From Colius striatus (Eukaryota > Chordata > Aves > Coliiformes > Coliidae), in contig NC_084774.1 in assembly GCF_028858725.1 (NCBI RefSeq), positions 8,344,001-8,408,000 of the forward strand: a stretch of DNA of 64,000 bases, written 5' to 3'. The position numbers and the translations under genes were made by a program. Under the pieces are notes generated by a model. That model worked only from the letters and a program-made list of their open reading frames with translations. It did not search any database and had not been told where the DNA came from. Shown in pieces: positions 32,000 through 47,402 of this stretch (positions are counted from its first letter, which is position 1; each line of letters begins with the position of its first letter).

Positions 32000-47402
<15,403 letters not shown>

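Follow-up and report, generated by a model that had tools for sequence, protein, structure and literature searches.

A predicted 3-nt exon 3 of ASXL1 in the genome of Colius striatus

The triplet GAG at 41788-41786 on the minus strand of the window (the whole 64,000-nt stretch of contig NC_084774.1 of Colius striatus that was analysed) is very probably the ortholog of the vertebrate ASXL1 3-nt exon 3, a predicted exon that is probably constitutive and putatively spliced in a stepwise manner. We favour this reading because exon 3 of the human ASXL genes is 3 nt long among 13 exons (figure legend in PMC5644247), because the protein obtained by inclusion matches both ASXL1 sequences in the PDB without a gap, because the AG/T phase fits and the 12 longer exons are collinear, because the tandem AG lies at the end of the widest AG gap in the intron (81) and only the candidate has a GTRA continuation, and because yUnAy matches at -66, -72 and -83 resemble the mapped branch points of MPC1. 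Against it stand the observations that its acceptor and its donor each score below every other scored site of their kind in the gene, that the Pfam HARE-HTH score is marginally higher for the skipped form, that an AG precedes its acceptor by just 6 nt, compared with 16 to 62 at the other acceptors, and that two other triplets of the intron outscore the candidate by sum. The triplet is thus a putative exon that is probably used in RNA.

Results

The gene is located on the minus strand of the window, where 12 longer exons were found by tblastn in collinear order, exon 1 lying at 47402-47343 and the first base of the last exon at 34702. The query for this exon mapping was a human ASXL1 protein sequence, and the last exon matched PDB chain 8svf_L with E = 3.6e-89. 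Exon 2 (42681..42763, minus strand, 83 nt) ends in ATGAG and is followed by the donor GTTAGT, and the next long exon (39950..40058, minus strand, 109 nt), which is exon 4 when the numbering includes the 3-nt exon, begins with T|GGC ACG. The intron between them is 2622 nt long, and the GAG divides it into 892 and 1727 nt. The triplet and both of its flanks were present as claimed in the original prediction, with the putative acceptor CTACAG at 41789..41794 and the putative donor GTAAAC at 41780..41785 (both on the minus strand), giving a candidate exon of 3 nt with AG and GT on either side that is third in order, between exon 2 and the 109-nt exon. The flanking phases had also been described correctly, with AG as the final two bases of exon 2 and T as the first base of the following long exon. 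Skipping therefore gives AGT (Ser) and inclusion of GAG gives AGG AGT (Arg-Ser), which reproduces the predicted change from Ser to Arg-Ser with the product KEM-R-SGTSP.

The included form aligned without gaps to 8h1t_N and 8svf_L, with identical residues around the junction, and the Arg-Ser of these sequences was reproduced in KEMRSGTSP, which is consistent with the claim that inclusion restores the mammalian residues. These were the only PDB sequences at E up to 1, and both are titled 'Polycomb group protein ASXL1', with no species shown; the length of 8svf_L, 1541 residues, agrees with the codon number of human ASXL1 (1541) in the available text of PMC5644247. Over the whole of exons 2 to 4, the predicted protein differs from PDB ASXL1 at a single position, with Asp in place of Glu, and the skipped form lacks the Arg that is present in both PDB sequences. 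The Pfam HARE-HTH domain was rejected as a discriminator, with 75.8 bits for the included versus 76.8 bits for the skipped form.

A 3-nt exon of ASXL1 is already known in human and is not new. According to the figure legend in PMC5644247, the human ASXL1, ASXL2 and ASXL3 mRNAs have 13 exons with an exon 3 of 3 nt, and the count of 13 exons is likewise found in the part of PMC9450349 available to us. The human exon has the same size and the same third place as the candidate, a likeness of size and exon number taken from the available text of PMC5644247; its exon number suggests that it lies at the same junction as the GAG described here. A literature search combining ASXL1 and microexon found no paper, and for the spelling 'micro-exon' there was none among the matches listed. 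We take human exon 3 to be c.141-143, which would equal the exon 2/exon 4 junction in the window.

The strength of the splice sites was scored with approximate weight matrices. Both sites had been called consensus, which the scores do not bear out: the acceptor of the 3-nt exon (-0.19) ranked last among the 12 acceptors of ASXL1 in the window, the remaining 11 ranging from 2.1 to 9.44, and its donor (2.65) was the lowest of the 10 scored, the other nine ranging from 3.41 to 8.22 (the donors of exons 5 and 12 were left out of the scoring). The non-optimal upstream donor GTTAGT, from which regulated inclusion had been suggested, scored 3.62, which is fourth lowest of the 10 and no outlier, so that this argument for regulation is not supported. 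Nor is the triplet unique in its intron, as had been implied, because 19 AG-NNN-GT sites were counted there (20 nt at each intron end excluded), with the candidate third by summed score and another GAG fourth. Across the window, the sum of the candidate was reached by 7 of the 233 such sites of the minus strand and by 5 of the 219 of the plus strand, and an equally good site was present in 28.4% of 500 first-order resampled introns, or in 9.6% when the triplet had to be GAG or AAG. On its own, splice-site scoring is too weak to serve as proof (rank 3 of 19; 28.4% of resamples) and was rejected for this use.

The two triplets with a summed score above that of the candidate are GAA at 40926-40924, which would encode Arg-Asn, and CAG at 41357-41355, which would encode Ser-Ser (both on the minus strand). 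Neither yields Arg-Ser, and both look like chance sites. Only two AG|RAG|GT sites are found in the intron, and the GTRA continuation is present at the candidate only. Sites of the form AG|RAG| followed by GC (42271 and 40868) were discounted because such donors are rare.

The surroundings of the triplet were more informative than its splice strings. The intron contains 213 AG dinucleotides and hence 212 gaps with a mean of 12.3, and the largest gap, of 81, ends at CCCAG (G at 41795), 6 nt before the AG of CTACAG|GAG; the second-largest is 56, and gaps as long as 81 make up 18 of 5144 on the minus strand of the window. No AG-free stretch of the intron is longer than the zone at 41797..41875 (minus strand), which is 73% pyrimidine over the 78 nt measured. 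When the 207 AGs preceded by enough sequence were ranked by upstream pyrimidine content, CCCAG came third and CTACAG fifth, and the sites at 40926 and 41357 came 10th and 45th. Three yUnAy matches are located at 41854..41871 (minus strand) with their A at 41871 (-83), 41860 (-72) and 41854 (-66), and as pattern matches only they mark putative branch points. An AG|RAG|GTRA site behind at least 75 AG-free nt occurred in 0 of 2000 first-order resampled introns, with a threshold set post hoc, and a threshold-free estimate of the chance that the largest gap ends at the AG of the candidate or at the preceding AG is about 2/212. The latter figure is safer because the resampling ignores local composition. 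As far as sequence can indicate, it is the 81-nt AG gap that lifts the candidate above chance, and the splice strings alone would not suffice.

No RBFOX-type GCATG was found from 41601 to 41999. Collections of viral and genome contigs without vertebrates gave 17 and 88 pattern matches, none of which was confirmed as a relative by tblastn.

Discussion

Because 3 nt are too short for simultaneous binding at both splice sites, the two introns are probably joined one at a time. In the proposed mechanism, SF1/U2AF would bind 66 to 83 nt upstream, at a distal branch point and a pyrimidine tract, exon 2 would be spliced to CTACAG|GAG first, and the donor GAG|GTAAAC would then be joined to exon 4, although the reverse order is also possible; the Arg-Ser arising from inclusion would be placed within the HARE-HTH domain. 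For the 3-nt exon we infer stepwise splicing from a distal branch point, with constitutive inclusion. A similar arrangement has been described in MPC1, where the accessible text of PMC9929638 reports main branch points of the constitutive 4-nt exon at -68 and -64 by lariat sequencing (-63 elsewhere), calls them 'unusually distant' and proposes that the distal pyrimidine-rich region may aid splicing despite the short distance between the two splice sites. The likeness lies in an exon of a few nt and a distal pyrimidine-rich zone, the matches at -66, -72 and -83 in ASXL1 being of pattern only, whereas the MPC1 exon in that account (PMC9929638, in part) has 4 nt and is critical for the reading frame, and the ASXL1 exon has 3 nt and is neutral to it.

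Fly eMIC-dependent exons offer a second comparison. In the portion of PMC8797185 available, they are described as having long AG exclusion zones and very weak 3' splice sites, UGC motifs near the acceptor and a UCUC-rich tract, with most features common to the mammalian targets. The ASXL1 3-nt exon shares the long AG exclusion zone and the weak 3' splice site with them (PMC8797185, in part), but the first TGC upstream of it begins at a distance of 37 nt, 'close' being undefined in that portion of PMC8797185. No TCTCT was found between 41935 and the 3-nt exon, and no TCTC or CTCT was seen by eye in the 78-nt zone. Neural regulation of the eMIC type, with inclusion dependent on SRRM3/4, is possible for this exon and is not favoured here, because the UGC and UCUC motifs of eMIC exons were not found. 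A 3-bp micro-exon is also present in Drosophila homothorax; it resembles the ASXL1 exon in size but belongs to another gene and is alternatively spliced, according to the available part of PMC7392893.

The long AG-free zone is followed by two AGs that could serve as acceptors. CCCAG (41799-41795) is a possible alternative acceptor whose use would add the 6 nt CTACAG and give a 9-nt exon at 41794-41786. A tandem-acceptor microexon, in which CCCAG and CTACAG behind a distal branch point yield 0, 3 or 9 nt (S, RS or SYRS), seems improbable to us; if it were true, the choice between the acceptors could tune the presumed DNA-binding surface of the ASXL1 HARE-HTH domain by splicing. We give somewhat less credence to the reading that the exon is the 9-nt CTACAGGAG (41794-41786) spliced through CCCAG, or that both acceptors are used, with the product KEM-S-Y-R-SGTSP. 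CCCAG is the first AG past an 81-nt gap, and its choice would be expected under a scanning model, the AG gap before CTACAG being 6 and those before the other 11 ASXL1 acceptors 16 to 62; moreover, the reading frame remains open, with SYRS replacing RS. However, the 9-nt form adds a Ser-Tyr that is absent from PDB ASXL1, in a stretch with a single Asp/Glu change, and CCCAG scores -1.56, below the -0.19 of CTACAG. The conservation of the protein thus favours the 3-nt form, and a minor 9-nt isoform may exist.

It is very unlikely that the real exon is instead the other GAG, at 41603-41601 (41601..41603, minus strand), 185 nt downstream of the candidate, and that the triplet at 41788-41786 is a decoy. 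In its context TTGCCCAG|GAG|GTCTTT, this rival provides the identical triplet and residues together with a higher acceptor score (3.45), but its donor GTCTTT scores -3.41, which leaves it fourth by summed score, its AG gap is just 16, and the 78 nt upstream of it are only 43.6% pyrimidine, rank 170 of 207 compared with rank 5 for the candidate. That the 3-nt exon has been lost or silenced in this lineage, with exon 2 spliced straight to exon 4, is hardly credible: the skipped protein is in frame with an equally good Pfam HARE-HTH score, and the splice sites are weak, but the human 3-nt exon is documented (PMC5644247, figure legend), the HARE-HTH domain is almost unchanged, and the GAG is in the right intron behind an unusually long AG-free zone.

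If the GAG at 41788-41786 is indeed exon 3 of ASXL1, a one-codon exon would be readable from genomic sequence by combining phase, protein homology and the AG-free zone, and a gene model of the genome could miss a single residue in the N-terminal domain of ASXL1. The combination of a very weak acceptor with a presumed distal branch point could also make this exon a handy minigene for the study of 3-nt exon splicing.

Other observations were made in the window. A TCC_TTT_CGT shift site is reported as conserved in ASXL1, with a TF frame of about 150 codons, in the available text of PMC5644247. The same motif is found in frame at 35529-35521 (minus strand) in ASXL1 exon 12, and when exons 12 and 13 are joined, the +1 frame is open for 133 codons with an EHNY motif near its end, which is in line with that TF frame (PMC5644247, in part). 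Elsewhere, an open frame of 523 aa at 54899-56467 (minus strand) contains a complete kinesin motor domain (PF00225, E = 1.3e-126), and none of the other seven open frames scanned had a Pfam match with an E of 0.01 or below. This kinesin frame is probably KIF3B, judging by its synteny beside ASXL1.
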